Assembly: GCA_026874595.1 (NCBI GenBank)
Contig: CM049311.1
Coordinates: 32,135,176-32,199,175, forward strand
DNA length: 64,000 nucleotides
Direction: 5' to 3'
Source of the DNA: Sipunculus nudus
Taxonomy: Eukaryota; Annelida; Sipuncula; Golfingiida; Sipunculidae
The stretch's first letter is position 1; every line of letters starts with the position of its first letter. The position numbers and the translations under genes were made by a program. The notes beneath the pieces are model-generated. The model was not told the DNA's origin. It did not search any database and saw nothing but the letters and a program-made list of their open reading frames with translations. Shown piece after piece: positions 1 to 46,300 of this stretch.

Positions 1-357
1 GGAGGATTTTGTCCATATTAGCGAGTTATCCTGTTAAGAGGAGTTTTGCATATTGCTTCAAATCGTCATTGAATGTTTCTGATATCCTATGTTTTTATTA
101 AATGTACGCCTAATTTAAAGAGGCTACATAAATTCGATTTCAATCATTTTCAAAATAGGTTAAATATGCACTTGCAATTTATAAACTATAAGTATTTAAA
201 AAGAAGAAAGACAAATATACATATTGACATTGCACTTACTGTAATAAGACCCTTCGAATAATACAAAAATAATTGCTTTTATAAAGGAGAATGTCTCATA
301 ATATCCGTCAATTAAGGCTAAAGCATTATGAAACAGACCTCCCGCCGGAGACTTTAC

Positions 358-1104
358 CTGGCACGTGTAGCATGGTGGAGCCCGCTCCGTGATACCACCG
401 AGGAAGTTCAGGGCTCATGGTTACCAGCAGCACATATATCATCAGCGCGAACAACCCGGCCAGCAGCATGTAGTAAATAAGATAAAACAGGCCGATCTTA
501 CCTACAAAACAGTCAATCAAACCATCAACAACATGCTCATCTTATGACTGATATGATAAAACACAGAGGCTTACTAATTATGCAATCTAATATCTATAGC
601 ACATGTTCTCCATTATAAAGACTATATTATAAATTTACTTATAGAAAATAAAAAATCCCATGCATATGTCATAGTATCAATCCAACGTAAATTACGTTTT
701 ACACTATACCAAAAATAAATAAATAAATAAATAAAAAATGCATGCTGGGTTTTATATTACCCAGAAAATGCATTATGAATACAAACGTTGACCTTAGTTA
801 ATGATTAATTTCACTACAATTATAAAAATGCAGCAGACCTCTTTAAACTGCTTTTTGGTGACATCATTCTCAAATTAAAGCAACCTTATCTATTTACACC
901 TATACGTTAATTAAGTTCGTGATAGCTTAGGAATATTTATTTCAGGCAAGTCATTGTTACCCCAGCTTCCCCTATCCCTGCCACAAAACTGCCGAGTAGT
1001 AGGATCCCACATGGCGTCCTTTATCCGACTCCCCATCCTCTTGGGTTTGGCGGGCTCCCCCGGCTCTGTCACCTCATATTTCCCTCTTCGGCTCATGTCC
1101 ACTG
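358..1104 (-). CDS. Na+/K+-transporting ATPase beta subunit, N-terminal part (two exons; gene continues off the left edge)
   Basis: Two minus-strand exons join cleanly. The first (1104 to 961) follows an acceptor (ttttag) and ends TGG-G at a GT donor. The second (501 to 358) starts after tttgtag and ends CCA-G before gtaaag. Joined, they give the family's hallmark order: a cytoplasmic N-terminus (from M at 1096, MSRRGKYEV), the W-D/N-x-x-T-x-x-F-x-G-R block, G-S-W-G-K-I-G-L-F-Y, then a single hydrophobic membrane span (YLIYYMLLAGLFALMIYVLL) and the start of the extracellular part. In this family the beta subunit is a type II single-pass glycoprotein that folds and delivers the catalytic alpha subunit to the plasma membrane. 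The disulfide-rich ectodomain lies in exons left of base 1. The first exon may carry the true start codon or be preceded by another exon; this cannot be decided here. Seen: motif order and splice sites. Inferred: isoform. Confidence 0.85.
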
Positions 1105-12143: not shown

Positions 12144-13062
12144 GTTAGTTAATGTCCGAATAGGTGAAATGAATGTGGATACATTGTGGTAAAATGAGAA
12201 TTTATAAGAAAAAGAGACACTTCATATTTCCATATTCCAAAAGGTTGACCTGATTCAAAAATCAGTATTCTGAATACGCTAAAGAATTAGGCCTATATAT
12301 ATATATTGTGGTTCCCTTTTGACCAAGATTAGTAATTTTGTGACCAGAATAATTTACCTTCTATCATTCTAAGGCTATTTGTGCAACATGATGTTTAGCG
12401 TTGGTTAGAAGTCTGTATTTGACGAAATGTACTGATAAAACTATGCTAAGTTAGTGCTAACGCTTCTTTAGCGTTTTCAAAGTAGCCCATTGCAGCGCAG
12501 GTGTTCAAAGTAGGTACGGGTCGGGAGTAAAAACTGTGTCTAATTAAATTGAAAGTTTAAGTCAAGTGTTATGTTATTTCAAACAATGGGAAATAACTTT
12601 TATCCTGCATATGATTCAACATGAAACCATCATATACATAAGAACATGCAAACAAAAATTTGCAATATTGTCAAAATCACATAATGACAGACACAATCTT
12701 GACTCCAGGTGTAAGATTAATTTATTCTCATAGTAAATGTTTTAACCTGTCATATTTGAAATTAATTGTATGTTTAAACACTCCAATAAAATATTTACCC
12801 TTTAAATATTTAAAAAAAAATAAATGAAAAATATAGTCTCTCCGTTCCAAGTGGGTACAATACAAAAACGTCCGTTTTACCAGCCATGAATATATGTTCT
12901 ATGTAAATATAATTTTCTTTTCCCGTTTATACACACACATATACATATATACATACAATTTAAAGGCCAAGCACTCACATCCCTGGTTTGCCTGGCAGAA
13001 TCTACCCTGTTTACTCCCTGAAGACATCTGGTAATTAGCCACACCTCATTATTATCTAATAA
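12144..13062. other. Non-coding AT-rich spacer
   Basis: Nothing recognised. If the expansin pseudogene kept a signal-peptide exon it would lie here, but no convincing match to that exon was found. Confidence 0.4.
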
Positions 13063-13157
13063 GTGATAATGGTGGAAACGCCTGCTGCCTGAACAGACCC
13101 CAGCCCGCCATCAGGGACAGCCCATTGTTCAACGGTACAGTCACTTTTAACTCTCGC

Positions 13158-13540
13158 CGGCTTCTGTGGTTTAGGGGTAGAGCACAACGACTCAAAGCCG
13201 GGAGGTTGTGAGTTTAAATCTCAGCTAAGTACCGGTGATATTTTCACGGTCGCCCTCAATCAGGTTGAGCACTCTGCCCTCTTTATAGGAAGCCGTGTAT
13301 CACACGCGTGCGTCTTTGGGTGGTTCCCCGGTGTTATGACCGAGCAATGGGGCTGATTACACACCCGGACCTGCAGGTGAGGTAGACACTTGGCCTGGGT
13401 GACACGATGATATAAAATGAAATGACAGGAAACGAGTGCTACCGTCTTGTCACGTAGTCCCAAACCGATATGGAACCCTGCAGATGTACAGATAAGTCAG
13501 TATAAAAAAGTATGCACCCGAAAATATGTTAAATAAAAAT
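13158..13540 (+). mobile_element. tRNA-derived SINE inserted into pseudogene exon 3
   Basis: The head resembles a tRNA with an A-box-like TGGTTTAGGGGTAGAGC at about 13169 and a B-box-like GAGTTTAAATCTC at about 13211. Further on, the body shares ggtgttatgacc, gattacacacc and acttggcctgggtgacac with the SINE in TRAPPC10 intron 6. An A-rich tail ends where the expansin exon resumes (ccagaataagcc matches ccagactacgcc of the intact gene). Pol III-transcribed origin is inferred from the boxes. Confidence 0.8.
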
Positions 13541-14766
13541 ATCCCCAGAATAAGCCACCTCCTTCAACTGTGGCATATACTACAGGGTAAGCCCAGCCGA
13601 AATTAGCAAAACGCAACAATTAGGAAGTTGTGTATAGGAAAATCTGAACAATGTACATGTAACCATGATGGAGGGATTGAGTTAACCATGAGTGAAAAGC
13701 TGGAAGATTTTAAAACTTGTATAGCTCATATTTAGATTATTCTGTGAGAATTTAGATCGCTTTTAAGAGTAAAAATAGTCGAATATAGACAAAAACAGAT
13801 GCAAAGATATGTCCATATAACTAAATAATATCTCCAACTACATTAAACAGGTTGTTGGATAAGGAAAAGGCAATTAACAGCATTTCTCCAGTCATTGGAG
13901 ATTTCTCCGTCCATGCATGGAATCATCATCTGTCCTGAGCGTCAGGAAGGTAATTCAAATACAATTTCAGCTGACGTAAAAATATGGGTGTAAACCACTT
14001 ATATAATCATCTTTTTAAATAGGGTTATTTGAGATTTTTCAATAGCTAATGCACCCCAACCAGATCGAAAAAATTGTTTGTATGTAACTTTGATTTCGCC
14101 AAGGGAGGTGACGGTGTTTGGGACATCGGCATCCTGCCCGTTAGAGCCCTGTTTGTGATCTGAAGATCAAGCACAAATACAAGGGAACCAACCCTTACTA
14201 AATCAAGATCCTGCAATCAAAAGCGAGACGAAAGACAATATAGTTAAAAATAATAACTTTATCAATGCACAGCTGTTTAATGTGTAGGTTTTACGTCGAA
14301 AATTGCCAGTACAGAACTGCACGATAAATAATAAGTGTTTTAAATATCAACTTTATTGCTCACATCACAAAGATATGAAATAATAGATTATCTTTACACC
14401 AATGAGGGGATAACTGTGCATTTATGAGAGAAAAAAAAACTATCATACCATGATGCATTCTTTACACATCATAATCGGTCACAGGAAATTAACGGGATTT
14501 GTTTCGGGGCTTTACTTGAAAACATGCGATACGCTGATTTATAATACGTAATCTTTTGATCTTACTTTTTAATATTACTTTTTACGTCTTTTTTTTCTTC
14601 TTAGTAAATGCTCTCGTTACATTGAATTTCACCAGACACTGTGCCTCATTTCTCTTCCCACTTGCCTATCAACCGCTTTTAGATTTATGAGAACGCAGCC
14701 TGGCAGGAGGCTAACCGCTCCATGGGCAACTAGCTGTACATGCACAAGAGCCTACCCATCTCTAGC

Positions 14767-15349
14767 CGCGACAGCCCGACTGAGTACGCACTGATATTTG
14801 GGCTGGTTAGTCTACTTGAGTCGTGATACAAGCAATATGGAGCAATGCATTGAAGTGGTCTTCAAAAATGTTGCATTCATATTGTTGTAAACAGCCCATA
14901 ATCTTAACAGCTACGTATGATGAATTAACACAAGAGAATACATGTGAACACACAACCCAAAATGAAACACCGTCTTTATGGTAACGAGTCATTTCCCGTA
15001 TCGCCTACCAGTTGGCTGCATCCAGTAACCCGTGCGTACCATGCTTGTATTCACGAGGTCAGAAATTCATCAAACATGCGGAGGGTTTACCAATATGTTG
15101 AGTTAAAACTAACTTTTAATGCTCATGTTTAGTGTTGTTAAAAAGTATACTAAAAAGCCTAACGATTAGTTTGGTTAATGTCAGTTGAAAGTGTATCTAT
15201 AGCTGCAGGCCATGAGGTGTTGTCAGAAATTACGAAAATGTTTGCATCCTCATTGAGCTTTAAAGTGCATTCCTAACTGAAGGATGTTATGGCACTCAGA
15301 CAGCCAATGAGCTGGTCGTAGACTCTCTGATGTCTGGTGGCCGGAATGG
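14767..15349. other. Unidentified insertion splitting pseudogene exon 6
   Basis: About 580 bp with no match to the expansin gene separates the two halves of exon 6. A similar stretch (c.acccatct..agcc) occurs on both sides, at 14751-14766 and 15354-15369. This may be an old target-site duplication or a small overlap between two rearranged copies. No terminal repeats or coding potential were recognised. Confidence 0.45.
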
Positions 15350-15612
15350 TGCTAACCCATCTCCAGCCCTCTCAACATCCGCTACGGAAGTACTGTCAAT
15401 GTGCTCGAGGACACTGTCGTAAAGCGTAAGCTTAACTATGTATGTATTCATTTTATTTGTCATTTTCTTCATTATAAGCCACCCATAAGTTTGTTTCCTG
15501 TTTATCATATCATCTCTGAACAAATGAATTTACGAATGTTTGGTTCCGAGCAGGTACAGATTAGACACCAAATAAGTCTTTTTACTTCTAAATGTTTATT
15601 GCAGCAAAAATA

Positions 15613-16717: not shown

Positions 16718-18263
16718 CTACATGCTGAGGGCATGACAAGTGCCCTTATCAAGGCCCACCAAAGCAGGAATGACAGCACCGCCATCGGATACCCCGGATT
16801 CTGCACCAGATGGCGGGGTGTCAGGCATATCCAGTTCGTGACAGATACCATCGTAAGAGACTGGGCCGTGGCCGGTTTCCTCTGGTACTGTGTCGTCACA
16901 TTTGGCAGTGGCAAATCCTGTTGGTCTTTCCATTCCAGAGAAGGTACCTTGGAAGTTGATGTTTATGTGAGCTCCTGCATTATAATGCCAGCCCATTCTG
17001 ATATCAAAGGAGGTACCTGTGTCTCCAGATAGATTTTCGGAACCATATGGCTGTTGGAATAAATAAAAAAAACTGACATCTGCATCTACTTGTGGTAGCT
17101 CTCTTTGACCATTAATGAAATGGCACTGGCGTAACATTTAGCACAAGACTATTAAGATTAAAATGCTATTTACTTTTTTGCGGAAGATATATCAAAATCT
17201 CATTAAACATCAATTACATTTATCGACAGGTGCATACCGAAAATGTTTACACAGAAAAAGCATTTACTTATCCCAATAAAAAAGGAGCAGTGCACGTTAT
17301 TCTAGCAGTCAGTACCTTCAAACAATAAGTTTTATACAGTACCACTTTAATAAAATAAAAATAACCGAGACAATGTGTATGTAAACCCTCACCGTAAAGT
17401 CGACGATTTCCTTGCACAGTGTCAGAGTGACGATGGCCTTGTCAGGGCAGTCTGGCGCCTGAAGGTTGAACCGACCTTCAAACCTGTTCTTGTTGTTACC
17501 GATACCCCAGGAGTGGTACACGTCCACGGAACTATCCAGCTGTTGACAACTTCCAAATCCACCAATTACACCATTAGCATTGGCCCCGGATTCTCCGCCA
17601 GTTGTTGCACTTGGCTCAACACATTTCTCCACAAAGGTTCCTGTTGGCCTGCCTCCTGTGGTCTGTCCCTGGATCTTGTAAGTCTTGGTGGATGTACCGG
17701 GGTTCCACTTGAGTTTCAAAACATATACTGTGTCTCCTTCCATCTTGTTAACCACATCCAAATCCCATTCCTGTATTACATAATGAATGAAATGACCTGT
17801 CCTCTTTAACTATTGTTGCGCTAAATTAATGAAACTAAGTATTTTGGAATAATAAGAACATCAAAATATCACTGTTAATTACATAAATGAAAAAGTTTAT
17901 AAAAGAAAATCAAATATTAAGAGCCATCCTTAGAGACTCACAGCATTACAATATGTTACCTTTTTATCACCCAGTGTTAAATCAGAACATTGTGAGTGGT
18001 TACCTTGTGACAGAAATACAAATGATATTTCTAAATCTCGGTATTGCTACAGCAGAGAAGGTCAGACCTACCTGGAAATTGGTGACAGCCCGGTCAAATG
18101 TAAGAATTGAGCGGTAGTTTTCCCAGTCACAATCGAACGACAAATCAATGTTGCCTTCGAATGTGGTCTGTTCATTTGACCCCCAACTGGTGAAGACATC
18201 GACATTTTTCTCGGCAGCTCCAGTAACAGCCAGAACAGCAAAGAACAGTGTTGCAGGTATCAT
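16718..18263 (-). CDS. Secreted protein with two CBM2-like cellulose-binding modules (300 aa)
   Basis: Three coding exons join in phase 0: 18263-18072, 17770-17393 and 17050-16718, all with GT-AG introns. The first coding exon starts one base before the ATG, so a non-coding 5' exon lies upstream (near 19.1 kb). The product has a signal peptide (MIPATLFFAVLAVTGAA) and two homologous modules at about residues 20-118 and 140-240. Each carries V-D-V-(F/Y)-x-S-W-G, F-E-G-(N/R), a central beta region, a (Q)G-x-x-x-G-x-(R)P-T-G turn and a closing Cys. A Gly/Ser-rich linker separates them, and a Pro/Gly-rich tail (about 245-300) follows. This pattern fits bacterial-type CBM2 (nsWg..F.g...G.W). Module 1 keeps more of the Trp residues (W27, W47, W66) than module 2. 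No catalytic domain is present, so its role is probably polysaccharide binding; this is inferred. An alternative is another immunoglobulin-like beta-sandwich family. Confidence 0.75.
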
Positions 18264-18264
18264 T

Positions 18265-19099
18265 CTGAAACTAAAAGAAACCACGTGTCTTATTATGTAA
18301 GGTTGAAACGCCATAGACACTGTGCGACTTTCACTTTGAAATAAGAAAACAATATGGGTGATGGATATGCATATTAAAACACTCTGTTGCCTGAGAAACA
18401 TTCCAGGACGTAAGCCAGGGAATGCACGAATCAAAGCCAAAAGAAATATGTATCCAGTTTCATCCGATCGTTAGTTGCATCGCATTTCAGTTTTTTTTTT
18501 TGTGTCTGCCGCTACAAAAGCAGCTACAATGTGTTGACAAAAGCATGTATGGAAGGCGGTGGGAAATTTGAATCTGAGTTTCTCTAATACTACTTAATCA
18601 CGACTCTTCCCGTTGCCCATCTCATGATAGTAATAGATCCTTTGTACAAAAATATATTCATGTGATAATGGACAAATAATCAGTGTGCTGATTTGAAAGG
18701 ATCAGTCGCACGGAGTATTATTCAACAGGTACGAGAAAAAATAAACCCAAAATTAGATGGATGAAACTGTAGCACCAAATGTAAATGAGAAGGGAGCAGT
18801 AACAAACTGTAAACACTAAGCTTGTGAATTATCTATTCCCATGTATTCCGATTCTATCTCTGCAACAGCCCGCTGAAGATGATTTTCGAGAGGAAACACG
18901 ACCTAAGTAGACTTAAGGATATGGCGAATCTATATTTACACATCTGGAAATATGCATTTTCAACATCACATTTATCCTACCCTTAAGCCAAGAAAGTATA
19001 ATGTTACTGCAAGTTAATGATTAATCACGATAAAACGTCAGATAAAATATAAGAGGAGGAAGAGATTGCTGAGGAATTACGGAATACGAATACGTTACC
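18265..19099 (-). other. 5' UTR intron of the CBM2-like gene
   Basis: Bounded by a plausible donor near 19112 (gaccag|gtacct) or 19099 (gagag|gtaacg) on the minus strand and the acceptor tttcag at 18270-18265. No coding sequence recognised inside. Confidence 0.5.
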
Positions 19100-19165
19100 T
19101 CTCACAGGTACCTGGTCTTCTCGGATGAACCTTGAGGGGTGCCCGGGCTTCCCTTTCATAGAGTT

Positions 19166-19202
19166 CTACTGAAGCCCTCCGAAAAGTCCAGTCAATAAAT
19201 AT
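19166..19202 (-). promoter_or_regulatory. Probable core promoter of the CBM2-like gene (TATA-like box and initiator)
   Basis: Read on the minus strand, ATATTTATT (19202-19194) is followed about 30 bp later by an initiator-like TCAGTAG (19172-19166). A splice donor follows about 60-70 bp further on, giving a short non-coding first exon. Spacing and motifs are seen; promoter activity is inferred. Confidence 0.5.
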
Positions 19203-19676
19203 CATGTGGTCGATAGTGAGCAGATGAATTCCGGGCCCAACACCTGTTCGTCTGATTGCTAGTTAATAATTATAAATCTATTCAATTATCACGTTCTGAT
19301 ATACGTCATTAAGTGCCCATCTATGTGTAGACAATTGAAAACGTGTCAGCCACTCACAGTCAAGCATATGGCTGTCTTTGATTATTACAGGTGAATCAGG
19401 GCAAGTTCTTATTATAACTTATTCGCAGTAACAAAAAGGTGCGGTTATTGCACGTCTCAATAAATAGAGTGTGATCTGTGTTTAATATACATGAAGCTAA
19501 ACATGTTTAATTGGAAACACGGGCCAGTGGTCCATGACACTCAGTAGCTCTGTATTTAATATATTAGTAATTATTAAATGAGTGCCTGCGTCGTTGTTTA
19601 ATCAGATGATAGAGAGAGTTAGGTTTGACACGTAAGACCACCTGGACAAACATGGCCGGGAAAGGACTGTCGAGTG

Positions 19677-19714
19677 TATATAAGGCAGTTCCGACTGAAG
19701 GTTGACATCAGTCC
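19677..19714 (+). promoter_or_regulatory. Core promoter of the expansin gene (TATATAAGG box and TCAGTC initiator)
   Basis: TATATAAGG at 19677-19685 is followed by TCAGTCC at 19708-19714, placing the start about 33 bp downstream. A short non-coding exon (about 19710-19735) ends at gcgag|gtaggt. The arrangement mirrors the divergent promoter of the CBM2-like gene at 19.17 kb. About 540 bp separate the two inferred start sites. Confidence 0.65.
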
Positions 19715-19959
19715 AGTTCTTCTGATCCGAGCGAGGTAGGTGGAGAGAGAGAGAGCATGAACATGAAGCATTTAACTTTCACTGTATAGTTATAGTTATG
19801 ATTCTGAGTGTGGACAATTTTAGTAGATTTTACAAGATAAATAAAGTTCTTGTGTATGCTCATCGAGGTCAGCAGTGACTTTGAGTTCTAAGACCACAAA
19901 TTATAATAAACAGGTATTTCATGTTCTCTCGTTTTCTGTCATTCAGATTATCCTTCAAG

Positions 19960-21945
19960 ATGCTGAGCGCTATTTGTTTGACATTGCTGGTGGGGGTCGC
20001 CCTTGGTGACAATTCTAAACGTGTTTGTACGGTCTTTGGCACCTCGATGCACGGTCATGTAAGTAATATTCATGAAGTTCATTGAGTTAAGGAAATACTA
20101 AAAATTCGACATTCTTAACCTTTTAGGCTTATTTTGATATACAGCTATCATTATATCATTAAATATACTGATATCATTCCCGTTTTCTGATTTATGTTGT
20201 ATAATGTGAAGAATAAAACTGTTAGCCTTACCTGCATAGTTAATGGCAAACATTTCTTAAGACATGAATCTGCAAAAAACAAAATCGTATAACTTTTGTA
20301 CATTCCATACAAGGGTACGTACTACGGTGAGGGTGCTGATAGTGGTAACGCCTGCGGCCTGAACAGACCCCAGCCCGCCATCAGGGACAGCCCCGTGTTC
20401 AACGGTACAGTCGCCATCAACTCTCCAGACTACGCCGCCTCCTTTGGGTGTGGAATGTGTTACAGGGTAGGAAAAGGAAGTTAAATACATGGCATCTTAA
20501 AATGTCAATTCTGTCCTCCTAAATGCAGCATTTCCCCGATAAATGATGTTTACACTTAGGACCAGTAAATTAGATTACAGGACATTTTTATGAGACTATG
20601 CAGTTAACTTCTCACTCAGAATTTTTACATACCAAAAATGATACCATAACTTTTGCTCATTTACATTCATAAACAGTTTACCTGCTTACATTTACCCACG
20701 CAATAACGTAATGACCGAGTGATCTGTAGATCCTGTTTCCTTTTTACAGGTCGTCGGAAAAGGAAAGGGTAACGGTATCTCCCCAATCATGGGAGACTTC
20801 TACGTTTACGGAAACAACATTTGTCCCGAGTGCCAGGAAGGTAATGCTTACATCTCATCTAACGTGATCACTTATAACATTTAAGATTCGGGTTTTAATC
20901 TTTGTAATTCTGTATTGTATTAACTTCAAAGGAGCAAAATGATTCTTGAAAACTAAAAATCAATAAAACATTGTCCGTTATAAATGTATTGTATGATTCA
21001 AATTCCCCCCTTACATTTCTTGTTTGCAGGTAGCCTTGACTTCGCCAAGGGAGGTGACGGTGTTTGGGATATTGACATTCAGCCGGTACAGTGCCCTGTC
21101 GGTGATCTGAAGATTAAGTACAAATACGAGGGAACCAACCCTTATTATATCAAGATCCAGACCAGAAACGAGCGGTAAGAGGCCTAACATTTCCCTTTAT
21201 CATTTCTATAATGTTGTCAGTTATAGAATTACTCGCCAGATAGCATGAAACTGCACCATGACATGTGCATTGCGCGTGTCAGTCATGTCCACTATTTTGG
21301 ACTAATGAGGGCGCCGTTTTTTTTAGATTTAAGACATACACAATTAATGCCCCGTTATTGATATTCCAGGCTTTTTTCCCCATTTATCATTTGAAGTACA
21401 CCAAAATATATTCTTTTCCTATTGGTTTAATTAACACGAATATTTATTTGGTCATTTATCGTCGACAGATCTCGGTAGTGTAAGTTTAAGTATAGAACCA
21501 TATGTTTGCTGGTAAATTTTTTGTGTAATGTTAAATATAAAAAATCATATGAAAAGATTTTACTTATATCCCTATTCTTCCACAGCGTGCCCATCAACCG
21601 TTTCCAGATTTATGAGAACGGAGCCTGGCAGAAGGCTGACCGCTCCATGGGCTACTGGCTGTACATGCCCAAGAGCCCACCTATCTCAAGCCCTCTCAAG
21701 GTCCGCTACGGCAGTTCTGTCAACGGCCAGGTACTCGAGGACACTGTCGAAATGCGTAAGTATAGATGTGTCTTTGTCAACTTTCATGCGATCATATCAA
21801 TACAACACATGTTTATTTTTCAAGTTCGTTTGACATCGCGTAAGTAATTGGAAACCTATTTTTTTTTATTCCAGTACCTGCTGGAGAGACTGATGGAACT
21901 GGTGTCCAGTTTACCAAGGACGATGGCCTACCATCTGCCGAATAA
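19960..21945 (+). CDS. Secreted expansin (DPBB/GH45-like domain + CBM63-like domain), 242 aa
   Basis: Six coding exons: 19960-20058, 20314-20466, 20750-20840, 21030-21174, 21586-21755 and 21875-21945, all GT-AG, 729 nt. A non-coding exon precedes them and exon 2 begins at 19947. The product has a signal peptide (MLSAICLTLLVGVALG). The expansin domain 1 pattern follows: G-T35-Y-Y-G, A-C-G-L, A-I-N-S-P-D-Y-A, C79-G-M-C82-Y-R, I-C-P-E-C, G-S-L-D118-F. Domain 2 has N-P-Y153-Y154-I-K-I-Q-T-R-N, P-I-N-R-F-Q-I, G-Y-W187 and P-L-K-V-R. Expansins loosen cellulose networks without hydrolysis. T35 and D118 align with the conserved Thr and Asp of bacterial EXLX1. N107 stands where the first conserved Asp (VTD) is expected. 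The aromatic triad of the cellulose-binding face is Tyr-Tyr-Trp. An N-glycosylation sequon lies at N63-G-T. A broken paralogue lies 6 kb upstream, and the divergent neighbour is a cellulose-binding-like secreted protein. Expansins are mainly plant and microbial, so an origin by horizontal transfer is plausible. The animal-style introns argue against contamination. Confidence 0.88.
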
Positions 21946-21985: not shown

Positions 21986-21991
21986 AATAAA
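21986..21991 (+). terminator. Poly(A) signal of the expansin gene
   Basis: AATAAA lies 41 bases after the TAA stop at 21943-21945, with further AATAAA-like copies immediately after. Confidence 0.7.
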
Positions 21992-24869
21992 GAAAAATAA
22001 ATAAAATTGACTGTATTCTATTTTCAATCTTTTCTGCGCGCACACGAGAGATGTTAGGTCGTATGTTGACCACCTTTTTTCTAACCTGAGGAGGTATCTA
22101 TCAGGAGGTGGAGGATTACTGTGGGCAGAAGGTATCTTCCCTCGAGAATATTCTGTTAACGTATGTTTCGCAAAACTGTTTCTCTTAATTGTAAAAGATT
22201 TATGTAGCATTAACCTTGACCAATGCCATAAAGTACCTGTGTTTCACTATTTCAGGTTTATTTATATACTTTTCTCTGATCATCCATTGAAAATTTGAAA
22301 GACTTTTTGTTTATTAACATTTTAGGGTCCTGTGGACTCTTTATAAGAAACCACAAGAATAGTGAATTCCGAGTTTCTTATTTGCTTTAATAGACTGGGT
22401 CTGACTAACACAAGAAGGTTACGAATGAAGCGTCAAAGTTTCTCTACCTTTAATGTTTTATTCTATACATTCTTGTACATAAGAGTCAACATACCCATAT
22501 GAAAATCAGAAATAAGTCAAGATTGATATACGAGTATGATGATGTTGGGTCGACTGATTCTTGATCTTGGGTGTCATTTCATCTTTTTAGAATTGCAAAA
22601 TATACGTAGTCGCATTACAAATTGCTCTCAATCAATATACTTTTTAAGGATCTATTCGTACAGGCTACTTTAAATCTCACATCATAAAATGAAAAGGCAT
22701 TCCAGCTAAGAAGCTTTATTCTGATCAGCAGCTTTTCATGGGCTAAAACATATATCAGTTTTCCTAATATTTTACTACAATCTATGCATATCAAGTTATC
22801 CCCTTTACTATGGTGAACGAAGGAGTCACCTAAATAATATCCTATCAATTAATTTTGTTTAATTTCAATACAACCAGATACAAGTGATTGTAAACATGAT
22901 ATATATCAAATCTCATGGTATGTAATTATACATTATGTAAATATTCATTAAAATGTAAAATAAAGAAATTCAACTTCAAGACTGTGTAATTAGTTACATT
23001 CAAAGGACTTCAATATTCTGTCAAATAACCGACTATAATCAGATCAACAAAACGCCCAAAACAGAGTTATCAACTGTGAGTCTTTGATACATATATATAT
23101 ATGACAAGTATTATTGTAACACAATATAAAAGAAAGCAGAAAGCAATCACATGTTCTGTAGAATGATCGGACTTGGATAAACAGTAGTCAACAATGTTTT
23201 TTATTATATGCTGAGTTTGAGCCTGCAGGTGGCAGCATCAAAGTTGGAGACCATAAGTGCTAAATAACAAAGTTTTTTTTCTACACTAAGGAAACAAAAC
23301 GCCAAAGAATTATCAGTGATCAAGCGGAACAGCTGTAAATCTTAATTCTGAAAGTGCCTACAGACATTCTACTGCTCTTCCGGATATTTGACAAGATATA
23401 ATGATCTCCTGGTAGTTTCTCTATTAGGTGTTAACGCCTGTAAATTATCTTGGAATCCAATAAATGATTCTCGTTTTGGTGGTAGGCCAACTGTTGTTTT
23501 GGAAGAACAGATAGTAGGTTGTCATTAGTAAAAAGAAATAATGCCATGGCTTTTGAACACTTGAGAATGCGTTTGTGATTCTGCAACTAGATCAATGGTA
23601 ATGGGACCAACGAAGTCGTCAAACGCTCTATGTCGCTCGTTTGTTGGTGATAATAATCGTATCCTATCAGGTTCTTCCCTTTCTGCTCTGTGTCACGCAG
23701 GCGTCCGAGATCTCCTCTCGTGTAACCGATGCTTTGTATAGCAAACTTTTTGCTGATTTTACGAACACCAGGGTGCACACAGAAGCAAGAACTGTAATCA
23801 CACCAATAAGTTCGCCATATTGCGTCGTGCACCTATCTCCAAATTTTGAACATGCGGATATATACCGCTCTCTAATAGCACCGTTTCCGACACAGGGCAA
23901 AGATCAGGTGTCACATGTTTGGTGTTTGAAGCTGGATTCCGAATACGACACCACGCTCCCATTGTATCACATTTCTTGAATATATCCATACAAGGATACA
24001 TAGAATGCACAGGCTGTGTTTAAGTCTTGATCGAAAGTTTGCAAAATAACGCTAGTCATCTGGAAGAGTTGTAAAACTTTATCCCACAACATGACCGTAA
24101 TTCCTGTTTTCAACTTCGTCATGGCTGGAAGTGGTCTCAAGTCGCGGGGCCCATTAAAGCGCCGGGCCCGTAGCATTTGCTACTGTTGCTACTATGTTAA
24201 TCCGGCACTGACAGGGAGGATGGTAGACTCATAACAACTCCCTCCCCTCTTCCGGAAACGTCGTTTATATCACACTCGTTATTCACATTCATCATCACTC
24301 ATTCAATCATTCAGAGCCTTGTTTCAAATTATATTAAAAGTTGATATCGCCTAATATTTTTCAGTGAAGTTCAGTGACTTAAACTGGAATGTCGGAATAT
24401 TAGTTGAGATAATTTAAAAATTAAAATTTTTTTAGAAAAATTAATAAAGTGTTTGCGGAGGTATGCGCTCTGTGAGTGCTTAATAATTTTTAGACGGCCC
24501 GGGGATTGGTTCTTTTTTTTTTATCAAATTTAAACAGAGCTTGCATTTCGATATTGGTATAATAGGTATATGTTCTCGCAACAGTAAGACAGAATTGACA
24601 AAAAGTATGCACTTTAATTTCTTTTTCTATGAATTTCTCATCCATTATGAAGTGGCGTGCACATTGAATGTTATTGGGAAGTTGTTTGTCTTTCCTTCTG
24701 TAAGTTTGCTCCTTTTTGCCTTCTGTTTATGTTTCGGCATAAAAAGGGTTTTATATCGATGGTCATCTTCTTTAATGAAATTGCATGTAAAGATTAAATT
24801 CAGGTGAGATTTGATTGTTGCATGATCTAAAGAGTGGTGTGGATGCAGATGAATTTTGTGTTTTTAGAC
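21992..24869. other. Intergenic, no gene recognised
   Basis: AT-rich. Overlapping open frames on both strands at 23.6-24.1 kb have somewhat higher GC but show no motif, conserved repeat or splice-compatible partner exon. Confidence 0.4.
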
Positions 24870-34300: not shown

Positions 34301-37300
34301 ATATTTCATCAACCTTTAAGTATCTCATCCACTCTTTCCAGATGCTAACTGTATTAATGGTTTATGTTGTCTGACAGGTCTTATGGAAGACCAGCCCGAA
34401 GGATCTATGTTGAGGCAAACTTTGTAGCTTACAAAGACAGTGTGTTTCCACCCGAGAATGACTGGACTCTGCTTGCCAGACCATTTTTTCACATCTACTG
34501 GACAGATTGTGTAAGTGCACAGTAAATTTGTACTTGATAGTCTTTATACATGGATTATTAACATTTTATAGACATCAACACATATGTCATTGTAACATAA
34601 TACCAGCTAAATTCCAAGAACATTAAAATAATCAAAAGACTTTTTTAAACTTTTCTCAACTTTTTTTCCAAATCATCAGTAATTGAACCCTAGCTAGATA
34701 TGATTGAAATACACTCCTAAGTGCACCAGTTAAGTGTGAATAGTTCTTTTATTTATCCACTTTAAAGACTTATGCATTCCAAATCTTCATAACTGAGTTT
34801 GAAATCATGAATTTACCAGGTTAGTCTTTTAAAATTCTGGTTTAACTTATCAACTAGATGTGAATAAAAGTGATATAAATCACTGTTGGACATAAATAAT
34901 TTTCCCTGTAAATGAACCTTGCACTCTGATGGTCAGTGCATTATGTGATTATTTGATGTGTAATTTAGTGGATTTTAACTGATACTTTTTTTCACAGTCA
35001 TGTAACCATTTTGTATTCATTATAATGAATCTATATTTTAGAGGAGGTATACAAATGTATATTGATGAAACATTGCTGTGTACTTCAGCATGTGTGTTTA
35101 TATGTCTTTATCTCCACAATTCAATTGTTGGCCATCTTGTTATCATAATGTCTTTGAATACACTGTAAACAATGGCCAAGACCACTGTTTACCCAAATTT
35201 AATGCTCTATTTCTTATATAAAATATGATATTATTCCATAAGAATTCCTTATTTTTTTACATACATAATCTTCTCTTATAATGCAAAATGATAACAATGC
35301 ACTAAAATTTTGTAATTGTGCATTTTAGAGGTTTTTCTCGAATGGTCCATTTTACAATTTTTAATGCAAATTATAAACAAAACTTATATTCAGTAATATA
35401 CAGGTGATGTATACTTTATAAAAATAAGGGTTATATAATGAAAGGTGGTATTGTTTGAGAGTCATTGTGCCTCCTAAGTCAAAATTTTTGGCTCATATTT
35501 TCATCTTCCTCCATAATGTTTTCCATGACATCAATGACGTCGCCAAGAAAACAAGCAATATTTGAGAATTTTTGCTCATTACAAATCAAATTTATTGGTT
35601 TTCACACTCTTTAAGCCTTATTCTTATATAAGTATACATTTCTCCGTATTATAGAATAATAACACTATGGAAATAATGCGTTAAATAGGCTAAAATAGGC
35701 CATTGGAAAAAATCCCTCTAAAATGCACAATTAATTTTAATATATATTAAAGTACATACCTGTAAAAGAGCCTTGAATAAAAAACACCCCCTTAACTACA
35801 CATTGACTATATGTGATATGTATCATTTTTATAGGATATAGACACATACAAGAGTAAAGTGAAGGATGAAATCACTGGTTGGACTGCCTCCCTCAAGGCT
35901 CGTGGAATCACAGACTGGTTTATTGTTCACGTCGTTCAAGATGGAAGCAAAGTCAAAACCAAACTCCTCAGAACCTCTGTGTATGATAAAATTAAGAGTG
36001 ACTTCTGTGGCAAGAGCTCAGAAAAGTAAGTATCAGATTTTTAATTTTCAGTTCTTGTCAAGATATGTGAAATATTTTAATAGTCTGCACAAACACTATG
36101 ACTAAAATGATTATGCTTTCTTTGTTTGTCTCTTGTTTAAGTTATGACAGCATTATAACACAAGTTGGGATAAATATTTTAAAATGTCTTTTGACTCAGG
36201 GGTTGGTTGGTTCACAATGATGAGACAGTTGTAACCAAGATAAAGTGGAGATATTTCGGTATTCTTTTAAACTTTCCATGACCAGCACTTATAGGGGCCC
36301 AGTTACCTATCTGACCTGTATAAACTGAAGGTTATTATAAAAATAGACCAGAAAACGCGGATATCACTTTACACAGGCTGCTTGATTTGTTTATATCAAT
36401 GTGTTTATAATAAGTGGGGGCCCGCCAAAATAAAACAAATTTTTCTAGGGATTCTGGCAATAAGTCAGATAAGCCAGAGCTTTGCAAATGGCGTTTTGCA
36501 ACAGTTGACCTTTCTACCTCCACATATATGCAACCTACCACCTTAGGTTATATGTTTTTCCCGTTTCTCAACATTGCTGTGTTTACAAACATGTTGTTCA
36601 TAAATAAGTTCAAACATCCTTCATGGAGGCATTATAAGAACTTTTCATGACAAGAATAACCCTTAGATCATTAATATACACACAGGGAAGCCAGAAATCA
36701 TTAAAATTCTTTTTCAAAAGGTAGGTGAATGGGCACCTTTAAGAAATTCAGCTTGCTTCTTTGCAATACATTCAGTACATATTGTGATCCATATTTGATT
36801 TGCATAAAATTCTCTGGTGGTACATTTTACAGTTTATCAAGCTTTAAGGCCTATCAAAAGAGGTTAGTTTCTCAGGTACCACTGGCATCAATTTTGACCC
36901 TATGCATCAGATATTTTATTTTTATTTTCAGTAGAAATTTGTACATTTCATGCTCCAGCCAGTTAGACATTTCTTTCAAGAAAATGAAATGATAACTTTG
37001 AACAAATTTTGGTTTTGTTATGGTGTGCTATTACCAGTTTAGCAGAACAATTCTGCTATTATCCTATTTTCCCTTGATCATATGAATGAAAAAAAAATGA
37101 TATCATGAAAAGATAAAAAAGAATAGCAACACTGATTAAAGAAAAAAATGCTTGGGAACCCGGCCTTTTTTTTCAATGCTCAATGGTTATTTGGTTGTGT
37201 ATGTGAACTATGATTTATTCTTAATATTATAGATGTTTCGCCCTGTATGAGCCTTTCAAAAGTGATACAAAAAGTGCTGAGTCATGGTTCGCATTGATCC

Positions 37301-40300
37301 TCCGCCTGCGACAGATGCTGTTAACAGCTTATAATAAAATGCTGGGGCGGTTTGAAGAACACATGAGAACTCAGAGGGAAAACAGAACAGAATCAGGATG
37401 GAACTTCTTTAACTATTTTATACTCCAGGTAAATATATGCAGCCATTCAATTTTTTTTTGTCTGAAGGTATATTTTAATATTTGAAATGATATGATTTCA
37501 AATTTTCAGAATTTGTATTGAAGTGGTATTGGTATGAATGGCATCCTTTGTGTGTGTTTTCTGCAGGGGGTATCACAGAGGATTAGTTTTTAATGAGAAC
37601 TTCAAAACATTAAGTAGCATGACAATTTTTCCAGGTAGTTTCAGAGGATGTGTTTATATATCAATGCACAATTAAAATAAAGGAGACGTGTTATCATAAC
37701 CTAAAATAGTTTTAAAGATGTATGGAATTAAATTTGGATAAAATATTCTAGTCTTATAATATATGATTATATAAAGTGCTTCATGATGAAATAATAAAAA
37801 TCCTCAGTGTATAAAGTAGGATTACTTAAATACTAATTTATCTATCATATCAAGAACGTATTTGTAATTAACCTGTGTCAAGTGAAAGTTATTGTTTCCA
37901 CTCAATTCTGTGTGTGTGTCTGCAAGATACCTGAAGAACCATTTCAAGGATGTAAGTGAAATTTATCATATTATGATATAGGTTTGCATTGTAAATCCAA
38001 GTGTAAATAACCCCAGATTGAGTGTTTTATGGGTTTTTTATAGACCATATATTAACATTATGACATAGCATGTGATGTTATGGACATCCATGGAGTGCAA
38101 GTCATGATGTCCCAGAGAACAATGATGTCACTCCATGTGCTGTTTCCCTGAAAGATGTCAGTAAACCAACGTACATCAATGGGGGGGGGGCATGGTTGTT
38201 GTTTTCTTGTTTATAGTCCGAGACAGCAATACCATGATGTCCATGGTGTTTTTCAAAATATTTTCAATTATAAAGTTCCCAGGTATAACACAGGTTTAAT
38301 TAGCATTTCATGGCACCAACTTTGAACACTATCTTTCACCACAGGGTTTGCGTCCAGATACTGGACACTGTTTCAATAACATGAATTAATCCCCACAGGA
38401 GGAGCTTGCCTTCATGTTTGAGATGCTGGGATTGTTTGAGGATGCCATGGTACAGTATGATGAACTGGATGCCCTCTTTACCCAGTTTGTCCTGAACCAT
38501 GCTGCTGGTGGTAAGTACAACAATAGACCTTGTCCTCCACACTAGCGACATCTGTTGGTGACAGTTGACACTAACAGTTCAGGTCCAGTATGTCAACAGA
38601 AAGGAGACTGTTTGCGCTTTCTCAATTGATGAAAGTTATAGAATTCTGTCTCATTGATAGAGGTTATGTTTATGTTCATGTCTATGGCATGTATCTGCTT
38701 TCATTAAACGAAACCTGCAATGCTGGTTCAGTGTATAACTGCTGCATAAGGAGTTTACAGGTCTTTGGAGACCCCCTTTCTGTTTGAAGTAAGCATCCTC
38801 TGCATGTTCTGGTCATGTGTGATCAACATAAAGTACTGCTCAAAATGAATAATGATTTTGTTTAAAAACAGTATTATGTTGGATTAATGTTACAAAATTA
38901 CATAGGTATCACACTGGTTTCATATCAGTGGATAGCTAGCAAAGGCTTTCATGAACTTCAGATGTGAAGTTTCTGTTTGACATGGATGATTGGACTGGTT
39001 GCAGGGGTGCAGCCAGGACTGGGGGAAGGGGGTGGGCCGAAATATTTGACAAAGGCAGTTGATGCATATATATTATGTGGATACAAGTGACAGGAATTTT
39101 TATAATTTTGTTTTAGAAAATTTAATCATTATAAGTTTGAACAGTTTATAATAAGAGATTCATTGCGACTGGGACTTCTTCATACTTACCACATATTTTT
39201 TTTATCAGTGTCTAAACAGACAATCTTCTGTTGTGGTATCCAAAAGTTAAGTTGCTTGTATAGTTTCAATACTTAGTGAAAGAAGATAAATACAAAATAT
39301 TTGTGGATTATGTTACAGTTGTTAAAAATGAAGGTAAGTGCCTATTTTTGAAGGTTAGTTCATATTTTTTTAAAATAAATTTTTGGTGGAGGTGATTGCC
39401 TCCATTCTTTTCTGCTTACTTAACTAACCTTACCATGTATGTAAATCTGCAAAATTCTGTTTCAGTTTGAGACTGTGACAGGGCAATAGAACATGCTATG
39501 CTTCCCCCTATTTATACCCTAGTGTCACCCAGGCCAAGTAACTAATGTACCTGCAACTCAAGGCCTTGGTGTGTAATCAAACCCATTGCTAGGTCATAAG
39601 GTCATAACACCATGGACCCCCCCCCCCCCCCCCACCCTTTCAAGTTGGCACTTGTGAATGACGCAAGACTATAGGACACAGCCTTCCCCTTGGCACTTGT
39701 GAATGAGGCAAGACTATGGGGGACAGCCTTCTCCTTGGCACTTGTGAATGACACATACTGTTGGGCACAGCCTCCCCCTTGGCATCTGTGAATGATGCAA
39801 GGCTATGGGGCACAGCCTTCCCCTTGGCATCTGTGAATGACACAAGGCTATGGGGCACAGCCTTCCCCTTGGCATCTGTGAATGACGCAAGGCTATGGGG
39901 CACAGCCTTCCCCTTGGCATCTGTGAATGATGCAAGGCTATGGGGCACAGCCTTCCCCTTGGCATCTGTGAATGACGCAAGGCTATGGAGCACAGCCTTC
40001 CCCTTGGCATCTGTGAATGACGCAAGGCTATGGGGCACAGCCTTCCCATTGGCACTTGTAAATGATGCAAGGCTATGGGGCACAGCCTTCCCGTTGGCAC
40101 TTGTAAATGACGCTAGGCTATAGGGCACAGCCTTCCCGATGGCGCTTGTGAATGACACAAGGCTATGAGGCACAGCCTTCCTGTTGGCACTTGTGAATGA
40201 CACAAGGCTATGGGGCACAACCTTCCCAATGGCACTTGTGAATGACGCAAGACTATGGGGCACAGCATTTCCTTTTTACCTGCAATGCACTGACACTGGA

Positions 40301-43300: not shown

Positions 43301-46300
43301 TTTAGTGAACTCTTGTTTTCGTTAATCATAAATAAACAATTCCTCAGTTACAGTCATTTGAATACATTACCCATTCCTGGCTAAGTTAACATAAATGCCT
43401 CTGTCACAAGCACAATATTTGATTAGCCTTGCGTTGGTTTGTTTTGTATGATTTCCATGGAAAAGGAAATTCTGGTGTTGCTAAAGGCCTACTCTGAATT
43501 TATTGGTAATATCATAAACATATATTCATTATCACTTCCTTTTTTAAATATGACGTATGTTTACATTGATTATGTCCACATACCAGTTAAATGTTATTTC
43601 TGAAAACATGATTTTATTTCTGCCTTAATTTAGGCATAACCTACGGGCCAGAATAAACATTATAATTAATGTCTTGCGTGATCCCAACCTTAATATGGGA
43701 TTGTCTGTATCGCACTGCAAGTACCCCCAGAACAGTCAGAAGTTAGGAGAATATTTCGACCAGTTCATTTTAAGTGGGGGTGGCAAGATGCCAGTATATG
43801 GGTAAGGCTACTGAAAATGACCCCAGGCCCTTATAAATTGTCCTCAACCTTTAATTCCAACAGTTTTCAATCCAGCTGGAAAAATCCTACATGATGATAT
43901 GTAATTTTGTATGTGGAAAAATTATTTGTTCATCTGCTAAGGCAAAGAATAATAAGGAAAACAGTGATTTTACCTATCACTGGATGTCCCCATTTGAGGG
44001 TATAATGTTTCCATGTGATCTACAGTACAGGTACATATTTAATTTTACTGATCATTTATTTCTAGATATAATAATTAAAGAAACCCATCAGAGTATTTTA
44101 CAGAATTAGTAATTTAGTCAAATTTACACAATTGCCATCGGCATATTATATGAAAAAATGTCCAAAAATAAACATTTTTTTACGAAATCCAATGTTTTCT
44201 TGTGAATTTTGAAATTTTGAAACAAAACACGGTTTCAGCTGGCTAAATTAGTGTGCAAAATGAAATTTTAAACAAAAGCCAAATCTGGAGTGGCTTAACA
44301 TTGAGCCTTTACTGCAGATTGGCTATTGCATATATTTTAATATTTTTATGATACCGTTTTTTGACCTGGGTAGACAAGAGAGTTGATTTAAAGTCTTAAA
44401 AATTATCAAATATATGTCATGTGTTGTGTGGATCCACTTCCATTCTGATCACTGGCTGGGGCCATTTTCAGTGGCCTAGCTGGCCCATATATATACAGGT
44501 TTCACGGACTCATGAACACGTAGATTGGCAAAGAAATTTTCGCAATCTTTTGTGTAAAGGTGACAAGTAAAGTTGCTTTTATTTTTTTTTTACAAATTTG
44601 AACAGATTCACATCGGCTGTAGATATAAAACTTGATACATCCGCCGCATATCTATATATTTATGCAGTTGAACAGCATTAATTAAACTGTGAATTGGTTA
44701 AAATAAAGCCCGGCATCCTCTTTCTGTATAAACCAACGAAACGTGTTTCACCATATCCTGTTCATCAAACTTTACTAGGAGGAAATTTTCCATAAAACAA
44801 TGGGTGAAGATGCATCAACCCAATTTTATACACTGTCACAATGACAGGAAAAGTATTGGCGATGTATAAATGAATGATCAAATGTCATAGGACAATGTTT
44901 CGGGGCTACCTCCATGTCCCTTGCATCCACCCAGCAATTGATCACTCAAGCTGGCAGCACTGACAATGCCATTGAAGCTCAGAGCATAGCTGCCTCTATG
45001 ATGGTTCTGCCAATGACGACGACTACGACGACAGTGCTGGCCTCTTGGAGTAGTTTGTGGCGGCAGCACTGCCGACGACGACAGTCACAGCAAAGCTGCC
45101 TCCCTGGTGGTTCTGCCAATGACGACAACGATGACGACGACAGTGCTGGCCTCTTGGAGTAGTTTGTGGCGGCAGCACTGCCGACGACGACAGTCACAGC
45201 AAAGCTGCCTCCCTGATGGTTCTGCCAATGATAACGACGACGACGACAGTGCTGGCCTCTTGGAGTAGTTTGTGGCGGCAGCACTGCGGACGACGACAGT
45301 CACAGCAAAGCTGCCTCCCTGATGGTTCTGCCAATGACAACGATGACGACAGTGCTGGCCTCTTGGAGTAGTTTGTGGCGGCAGCACTGCCGACGACGAC
45401 AGTCACAGCAAAGCTGCCTCCCTGATGGTTCTGCCAATGACGACGACGACAGTGCTGGCCTCTTGGAGTAGTTTGTGGCGGCAGCACTGCCGACGACGAC
45501 AGTCACAGCAAAGCTGCCTCCCTGATGGTTCTGCCAAAGACGACGATGACAACGACGACAGTGCTGGCCTCTTGGAGAAGTTTGTGGCGGCAGCACTGCC
45601 GACGACGACAGTCACAGCAAAGCTGCCTCCCTGATGGTTCTGCCAATGACGACGACCACGACGACAGTGCTGGCCTCTTGGAGTAGTTTGTGGCGGCATC
45701 ACTGCCGACGACGACAGTCACAGCAAAGCTGTCTCCCTGATGGTTCTGCCAATGACGACGACGACGACGACGACAGTGCTGGCCTCTTGGAGTAGTTTGT
45801 GGCGGCAGCACTGCCGACGACGACAGTCACAGCAAAGCTGCCTCCCTGATGGTTCTGCCAATAAGCTGCCTCCCTGATGGTTCTGCCAATGACGACGACG
45901 ACGACGACGACAGTGCTGGCCTCTTGGAATGGTGTGTGGCGGCAGCACTGCCGACGACGACAGTCACAGCAAAGCTGCCTCCCTGATGGTTCTGCCAATG
46001 ACGACGACGACGACGACGACGACAGTGCTGGCCTCTTGGAGTAGTTTGTGGCGGCAGCACTGCCGACGACCACAGTCACAGCAAAGCTGCCTCCCTGATG
46101 GTTCTGCCAATGACGACGACTACGACGACAGTGCTGGCCTCTTGGAGTAGTTTGTGGCGGCAGCACTGCCGACGACGACAGTCACAGCAAAGCTGCCTCC
46201 CTGATGGTTCTGCCAATGACAACGACGACGACGACAGTGCTGGCCTCTTGGAGTAGGTTGTGGCGGCAGCACTGCGGACGACGACAGTCACAGCAAAGCT

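Follow-up and report, generated by a model that had tools for sequence, protein, structure and literature searches.

An intact expansin gene, referred to here as copy F, is carried by a chromosome-scale contig of Sipunculus nudus. It is a nuclear animal gene under constraint. As read from the sequence, the new element is its divergent, duplicated pairing with a gene for binding-type modules related to those of a GH9 cellulase. Copy F lies in a 64,000-nucleotide stretch of contig C6 (C6:32135176-32199175; hereafter the window), and the genome searched for relatives comprised 1.43 Gb. The genome searches listed the best candidates, and counts of copies elsewhere in the genome are to be read as at least the numbers given.

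Structure of the expansin gene

The features described are collected in Table 1. The original prediction had placed at this position an intact, intron-bearing expansin gene with a TATA promoter, a poly(A) signal and six introns, one of them before the coding start. Its coordinates were exact: the reading frame yields 242 amino acids with no internal stop, the introns are all of the GT..AG type, the coding introns have phases 0, 0, 1, 2, and 1, and AATAAA is found three times on the 3' side. The introns of the region are AT-rich and the exons GC-richer. The transcription start of the 5'UTR exon was inferred. The sixth, 5'UTR intron is supported because the TATA box, the donor, and the acceptor directly 5' of the ATG are all conserved between copy F and a second intact copy (copy A). 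In the same alignment, the exon-1 relic of cluster unit D retains the stretch before the ATG; the TATA box and donor are absent from it. The product has a hydrophobic N-terminus (MLSAICLTLLVGVALG), judged by eye to be a putative secretion signal, followed by D1 (DPBB-like) and D2 (CBM63-like).

Table 1. Positions of the expansin and partner genes, their signals, and their copies. Coordinates refer to the window unless a contig is named.
Feature	Position	Strand	Remarks
Expansin copy F, CDS	19960-21945	+	six coding exons; 242 aa plus stop; intact
Copy F coding exons 1-3	19960-20058, 20314-20466, 20750-20840	+	
Copy F coding exons 4-6	21030-21174, 21586-21755, 21875-21945	+	
TATA box TATATAAG	19677-19684	+	upstream of copy F
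5'UTR exon and 5'UTR intron of copy F	within 19677-19959	+	donor 19735/19736; acceptor 19946/19947
AATAAA poly(A) signals (three)	21986, 21996, 22000 (span 21986-22005)	+	3' side of copy F
Intergenic region, partner to expansin F	18264-19676		blastn blocks 69-80% identical to upstream side of copy A
Partner gene	16718-18263	-	exons 18263-18072, 17770-17393, 17050-16718; 300 aa
Broken expansin copy in window	13050-15418	+	pieces of exons 2-5, in-frame stops (tblastn, blastn)
587-bp insert in exon 5 of broken copy	14768-15354		14-nt near-perfect duplication, 14754-14767 and 15355-15368
Cluster unit A, leftmost		-, +	intact expansin A (-), intact partner A (+); ~110 kb from copy F
Cluster unit B		-, +	broken expansin B (-), broken partner B (+)
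Cluster partner C		+	broken, unpaired
Cluster unit D		-, +	expansin D exon 1 (-), broken partner D (+), 7.6 kb apart
Cluster right end, in window		+, -, +	broken expansin (+, unpaired), intact partner (-), intact expansin F (+)
C3 expansin fragment	C3:89074736-89075134		38% identical, intronless over residues 27-156, carries stop

Assignment to the expansin family

Copy F stands as a two-domain expansin on the basis of profile and structure-database comparisons. The NCBIfam profile for expansin EXLX1 (NF041144) matches its protein over profile positions 1-193 of 194 (E=1.4e-18) with 66.9 bits, under the curated cut-off of 100 bits, and the protein is best placed on an animal branch of the expansin superfamily, outside the bacterial EXLX1 subfamily that NF041144 describes. 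An HMM was built from 82 bacterial relatives, namely the best 80 of 89 confirmed loci and two plasmid genes. It gave 72.9 bits for the whole protein, 30.4 bits for D1 alone and 35.5 bits for D2 alone against a top score of 8.6 bits over 1000 shuffled copy F proteins; these scores lean upward, as the relatives were selected by similarity either to the window protein or to an alignment that contains it, a bias of which the NF041144 and PDB results are free. The earlier claim that both expansin domains are present was thus upheld by each domain separately, and they stand in the expected expansin order. In the PDB, bacterial expansins were the best matches (E=3.5e-7), with maize EXPB1 far behind (E=0.0062), and all six matches at E<=0.001 were expansins or a cellulose-binding protein aligned across both domains. 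A Pfam-A search with the copy F protein gave no match at E<=1. When NF041144 was searched over the whole genome (1.43 Gb) no match was obtained at E<=0.001, because exons are matched singly; genomic expansin copies were accordingly located by protein query and not by this profile.

The residues on which activity depends were compared with those of Bacillus subtilis EXLX1, for which the available part of the source reports D71, Y73, and D82 as essential and W125, W126, Y157, and K119 as binding the glucan (PMC11040781). By alignment, D82 corresponds to D118 of copy F, so that the essential aspartate of D1 is kept, and K119 corresponds to K146; the aspartate and the lysine are each found in 82/82 bacterial relatives. 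D71 and Y73 correspond to N107 and C109, and these two EXLX1 residues are not universal in the family, because the letters of copy F recur in 47/82 (the other 35/82 having D) and 62/82 of the relatives, respectively. W125, W126, and Y157 correspond to Y153, Y154, and Y186, which together with K146 provide a three-aromatic D2 platform and its lysine. Tyrosine occurs at position 186 in 62 of the 82 relatives. Position 153 is W in 41/82 and Y in 41/82, and position 154 is W in 82/82, making Y154 a conservative change unseen among those bacteria, although both columns are biased in that the locus search demanded W or Y there. Judged from this alignment, most working parts of an expansin are kept in copy F.

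Partner gene and its relation to a GH9 cellulase

The gene transcribed away from copy F encodes two repeats of about 100 amino acids each behind a putative signal peptide (by eye). The best-scoring match of these repeats outside the cluster lies in the same genome at C5:32788545-32789342 (41% and 38% identity, E 8.3e-27 and 2.3e-18), in the opening part of an open frame of 813 codons. In the 642 amino acids of this frame that were taken (locus L052), the repeats run on into a GH9 domain (PF00759, E=3.7e-102), and the partner repeats thus have homologues in both modules at the N-terminus of this C5 cellulase. The partner resembles the N-terminal portion of a GH9-type cellulase from which the enzyme is missing, and no hydrolase domain was detected by Pfam in either the expansin or the partner.

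The partner module itself gave no Pfam match and no meaningful PDB hit, a profile search included. Compared by hhalign with a five-row CBM2 alignment, it produced a weak match (E 0.00097, probability 22%) that is collinear over 81 columns, and the expansin control gave E 0.68 over 6 columns. The module is putatively CBM2-like, an assignment for which the GH9 context and this weak profile match speak.

Further genes with partner modules are located at C6:20395011-20402569 and C6:17814460-17815272 (L057, L059, and L060), and two of these further module frames adjoin long GQG-rich repeats, which suggests that the partner module is also employed in structural or adhesive proteins.

Gene cluster, apparent duplication as a pair, and selection

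Within about 115 kb of C6 (32042350-32157120), five copies or remains of the expansin and five of the partner were found, and two of the five look intact in each case. Searches of the 57 kb from 32078544 to the window and of 20 kb on either outer flank gave no extra copy at E<=0.1. At each of the four sites where expansin and partner, or what is left of them, lie together as a pair (units A, B, and D and the window), the two are divergent. Accepted as pseudogenes are the broken expansin of the window (13050-15418), expansins B and D of the cluster, and the three partners B, C, and D. The insert in exon 5 of the broken window copy resembles a mobile element, and a stretch about 115 kb away (L038) is 71% similar to it over 129 columns.

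Substitution rates were calculated by the method of Nei and Gojobori with Jukes-Cantor correction, with one pair compared per gene. Expansins F and A share 235 of 242 residues (7 differ), with dS 0.352, dN 0.013, and omega 0.038; the intact partners of the window and of unit A are identical at 259 of 300 residues (41 differ), with dS 0.339, dN 0.065, and omega 0.19. Copy A shares all five coding introns of copy F. Expansin F is under strong purifying selection in this comparison, and its interpretation as a pseudogene is rejected on account of the omega value and the absence of stops. Because the two dS values are nearly equal (0.352 vs 0.339), a single duplication of the whole two-gene unit fits the data. 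The intergenic region would have been copied along with the genes, since blocks of it remain alignable to the upstream side of copy A at the identities given in Table 1. Expansin and partner therefore seem to have been duplicated jointly, as a two-gene unit.

Genomic setting

The neighbouring DNA had been described as holding ordinary animal genes. This is correct for exons of TRAPPC10 at 35841-36026 (E 1.6e-19) and 38390-38521 (E 1.5e-15) and, with a weak Pfam match under the cut-off, for Na/K-ATPase beta at 941-1075 on the minus strand (E 0.0036); it does not apply to the nearest neighbours of copy F, which are the two-module gene related to GH9 and the broken expansin. Nine stretches of the window were tested in the neighbour search, three of which matched a plausible family, and the window is regarded as animal DNA because of the TRAPPC10 exons and the weak Na/K-ATPase beta match. 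Probable Na/K-ATPase beta-chain exons extend over 334-1075 (-), with a transmembrane-like stretch at 344-526 by eye. A search for the mollusc haemocyanin domain PF14830 gave no match, and neither did its controls. Elsewhere in the window, arrays of apparently one 103-109-bp repeat occupy 44979-47364 and 50380-59370 in opposite orientation, the larger having 85 copies, with a 41-bp repeat array between them (47810-50308). With orientation taken by eye from the consensus units, the 103-109-bp arrays read as a large inverted arrangement.

Bacterial-type COX1 was found in nine frames of 577-578 amino acids with near-equal scores on contigs C60, C61, C62, C66, C72, C74, C75, and C89, and in one more frame of 489 amino acids on C123. 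The assembly seems to include at least one bacterial symbiont or contaminant, and a contamination check of copy F was needed because small contigs carry such sequences. Contamination as a source of copy F was rejected on account of its introns, the AT-rich composition of these introns relative to the GC-richer exons, its location on a chromosome-scale contig (C6, 88.9 Mb), the animal neighbours, and the second copy, in which the five coding introns recur.

Origin

Identity to the window protein is 24-33% among the best bacterial relatives found. Bacterial loci were collected by means of one D2-motif pattern, which gave 350 matches; 89 of them could be confirmed, and the 80 best entered the analysis. 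A donor lacking the motif would be missed by this search. Viral contigs scanned with the window protein yielded five pattern matches and no relative. In a tree of 85 rows (82 bacterial rows, F, A, and the C3 fragment), the branch of F and A has a length of 2.75 changes per column and the C3 fragment groups with them (SH-aLRT 88). No supported bacterial sister of F/A was found among the 82 bacterial rows, and the row nearest to F/A by path is from a Bacteroidia genome bin (5.55). Because the tree was quick and unrooted and its long branches drew a warning from the tool, no origin is claimed.

The C3 fragment passes by a frame shift (by eye) into a D2-like stretch, and its two pieces match NF041144 with E=0.0004 and 0.065, the second weak. 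A GxGxxPIxG stretch is common to the window gene and this fragment and is absent from four aligned bacterial rows. Because the stretch is shared, an animal expansin lineage that is old and diverged seems to be represented in the genome, and the C3 fragment may be regarded as a trace of a second, diverged expansin lineage.

Taken together, the comparisons speak against recent acquisition from any bacterium within reach of the D2-motif search. An ancient transfer and vertical descent are both compatible with these bacterial comparisons. In the original prediction the gene looked domesticated and functional; the second half agrees with the intact frame and the purifying selection (omega 0.038), and the horizontal acquisition contained in the first half could not be substantiated, as no close bacterial donor was found among the loci collected.

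Proposed function

Expansins are a family in which the binding of crystalline cellulose falls to D2 and the loosening of chain contacts, without hydrolysis, to D1. Animal cellulose digestion is usually framed in terms of hydrolases, either the animal's own or microbial. The reading we favour, which is probable though only by a modest degree, is that the secreted expansin, the partner, and the GH9 enzyme form a set for loosening and cutting cellulose, likely in digestion. D2 of copy F would grip crystalline cellulose through the aromatic row Y153, Y154, and Y186, and D1, with D118 kept, would slide or prise adjacent glucan chains apart, the absence of cutting being presumed from the family. The two free modules of the partner would probably coat cellulose surfaces and help to separate or present fibrils, after which the GH9 endoglucanase would cut the opened cellulose. 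The setting would most likely be the digestive tract of an animal eating algae, plants, or detritus, and the two divergent genes may be co-regulated. Points that tell against this reading are the NF041144 score under the cut-off, the lack of a Pfam match, the tyrosine at 154 in place of a tryptophan, N107 and C109 at the positions of D71 and Y73, and the partner module's lack of a Pfam or meaningful PDB match. It is a more tentative proposition, and one we hold with somewhat less than even confidence, that the animal has in this way built its own non-hydrolytic loosening module from a deep expansin lineage and a GH9-derived double-module protein, the two being expressed together from one divergent promoter region and duplicated as a unit. 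If true, some animals would also encode the mechanical, non-cutting half of cellulose digestion, and the divergent two-gene unit, copied as a pair, would offer a clean genetic handle on the joint action of loosening and binding proteins.

Expression records for other animals, in the available parts of the sources, concern the pedal disc of a sea anemone (PMC6626399) and the eggs and feeding tissues of a mosquito (PMC4786938), and they do not plainly point to a gut role. The first of these is an argument for adhesion, by which the ligand of the expansin and its partner would be a structural polysaccharide, whether cellulose, chitin, or mucus glycans, within a secreted glue, mucus, or matrix and not in food: the Expansin-YoaJ gene of Exaiptasia is described there as being among those upregulated in the pedal disc, and two relatives of the partner module in the S. 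nudus genome share frames with long GQG-rich repeats, as structural proteins do. We consider this unlikely, given that the partner repeats have their top match outside the cluster (E 8.3e-27, 41% identity) in modules carried by a GH9 cellulase and that the window expansin is without a chitin-binding domain by Pfam. A role in immunity or particle capture, with secreted cellulose binders recognising algae, oomycetes, or cellulose-making bacteria in the manner of lectins, appears less probable still; the repeated gain and loss of copies (2/5 intact per gene) would suit defence genes and neither gene has a hydrolase domain by Pfam, against which stand the strong purifying selection on the expansin (omega 0.038 in the one pair compared) and the wall loosening known as the action of the family. 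That copy F is a GH45-type glycoside hydrolase sharing the double-psi beta-barrel is very improbable, for although GH45 enzymes are related to expansin D1 in sequence and fold as far as the sources could be consulted (PMC6226162, PMC11025796), the protein has a full C-terminal D2 (35.5 bits alone against expansins), no Pfam GH45 match at E<=1, and PDB matches at E<=0.001 that are in 6/6 cases expansins or a cellulose-binding protein across both domains.

Comparison with known systems

Animal expansin entries probably exist in protein databases. The rarity of expansins in animals, part of the original prediction, was somewhat overstated: two cases from non-nematode animals are in print among the matches listed from the open-access literature, Exaiptasia (PMC6626399) and a mosquito (PMC4786938). 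From the available text, the Exaiptasia pallida gene annotated as Expansin-YoaJ combines Barwin-like, pollen-allergen-like, and chitin-binding domains (PMC6626399); compared by this description only, it resembles copy F in being an animal expansin and differs in the added chitin-binding domain. The transcript of Anopheles culicifacies called expansin is said, in the part of the source available, to match plants only (PMC4786938), and is set apart by that description from the window protein, which matches bacterial expansins over the plant one. An expansin listing in the egg fluid of Kellet's whelk is assigned to bacteria in the portion consulted (PMC10913743), and it would be speculation to regard it as the snail's own transcript. 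The expansin mentions seen in PMC7831173, PMC10855680, and PMC13084967 are titles in reference lists.

The expansins of plant-parasitic nematodes can be likened to copy F by their description in the available excerpts, being animal-encoded and secreted, with the plant wall as target (PMC4301866, PMC5664098). They have been attributed to transfer from bacteria, according to the part seen of PMC6006793, and copy F differs in that no bacterial donor is visible among the relatives found.

Bacterial EXLX1 (B. subtilis YoaJ, PDB 2bh0; also 4jcw, 9ms4, and 9ms5) resembles copy F in its two domains, the essential aspartate, the lysine, and the D2 aromatic platform, and phmmer matches of copy F to these bacterial EXLX1 entries range from E 3.5e-7 to 2.6e-6. 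It is unlike copy F in identity (at most 33% to the loci found), in the introns of copy F, and in the score of copy F below the NF041144 cut-off. Relative to the four aligned bacterial rows, copy F shows GKGNGISPIMG as an additional stretch, and the loop that follows its LD motif is shorter. The match to maize EXPB1 (PDB 2hcz), which we take to have the same two expansin domains, is much weaker and covers query positions 35-214 of copy F.

Among the matches listed from the open-access literature, as far as those sources were available, no expansin was found whose partner is a gene for GH9-derived modules. A parallel lies in microbial fusions. According to the part consulted of PMC11040781, less than 1% of the microbial expansins recovered carry an added domain, and an N-terminal CBM2 is fused to the expansin in some microbes (Clavibacter, Xanthomonas, and others). 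In those microbes binding module and expansin form one fused protein, whereas in S. nudus the binding-type modules are encoded by a separate, linked, and divergent gene.
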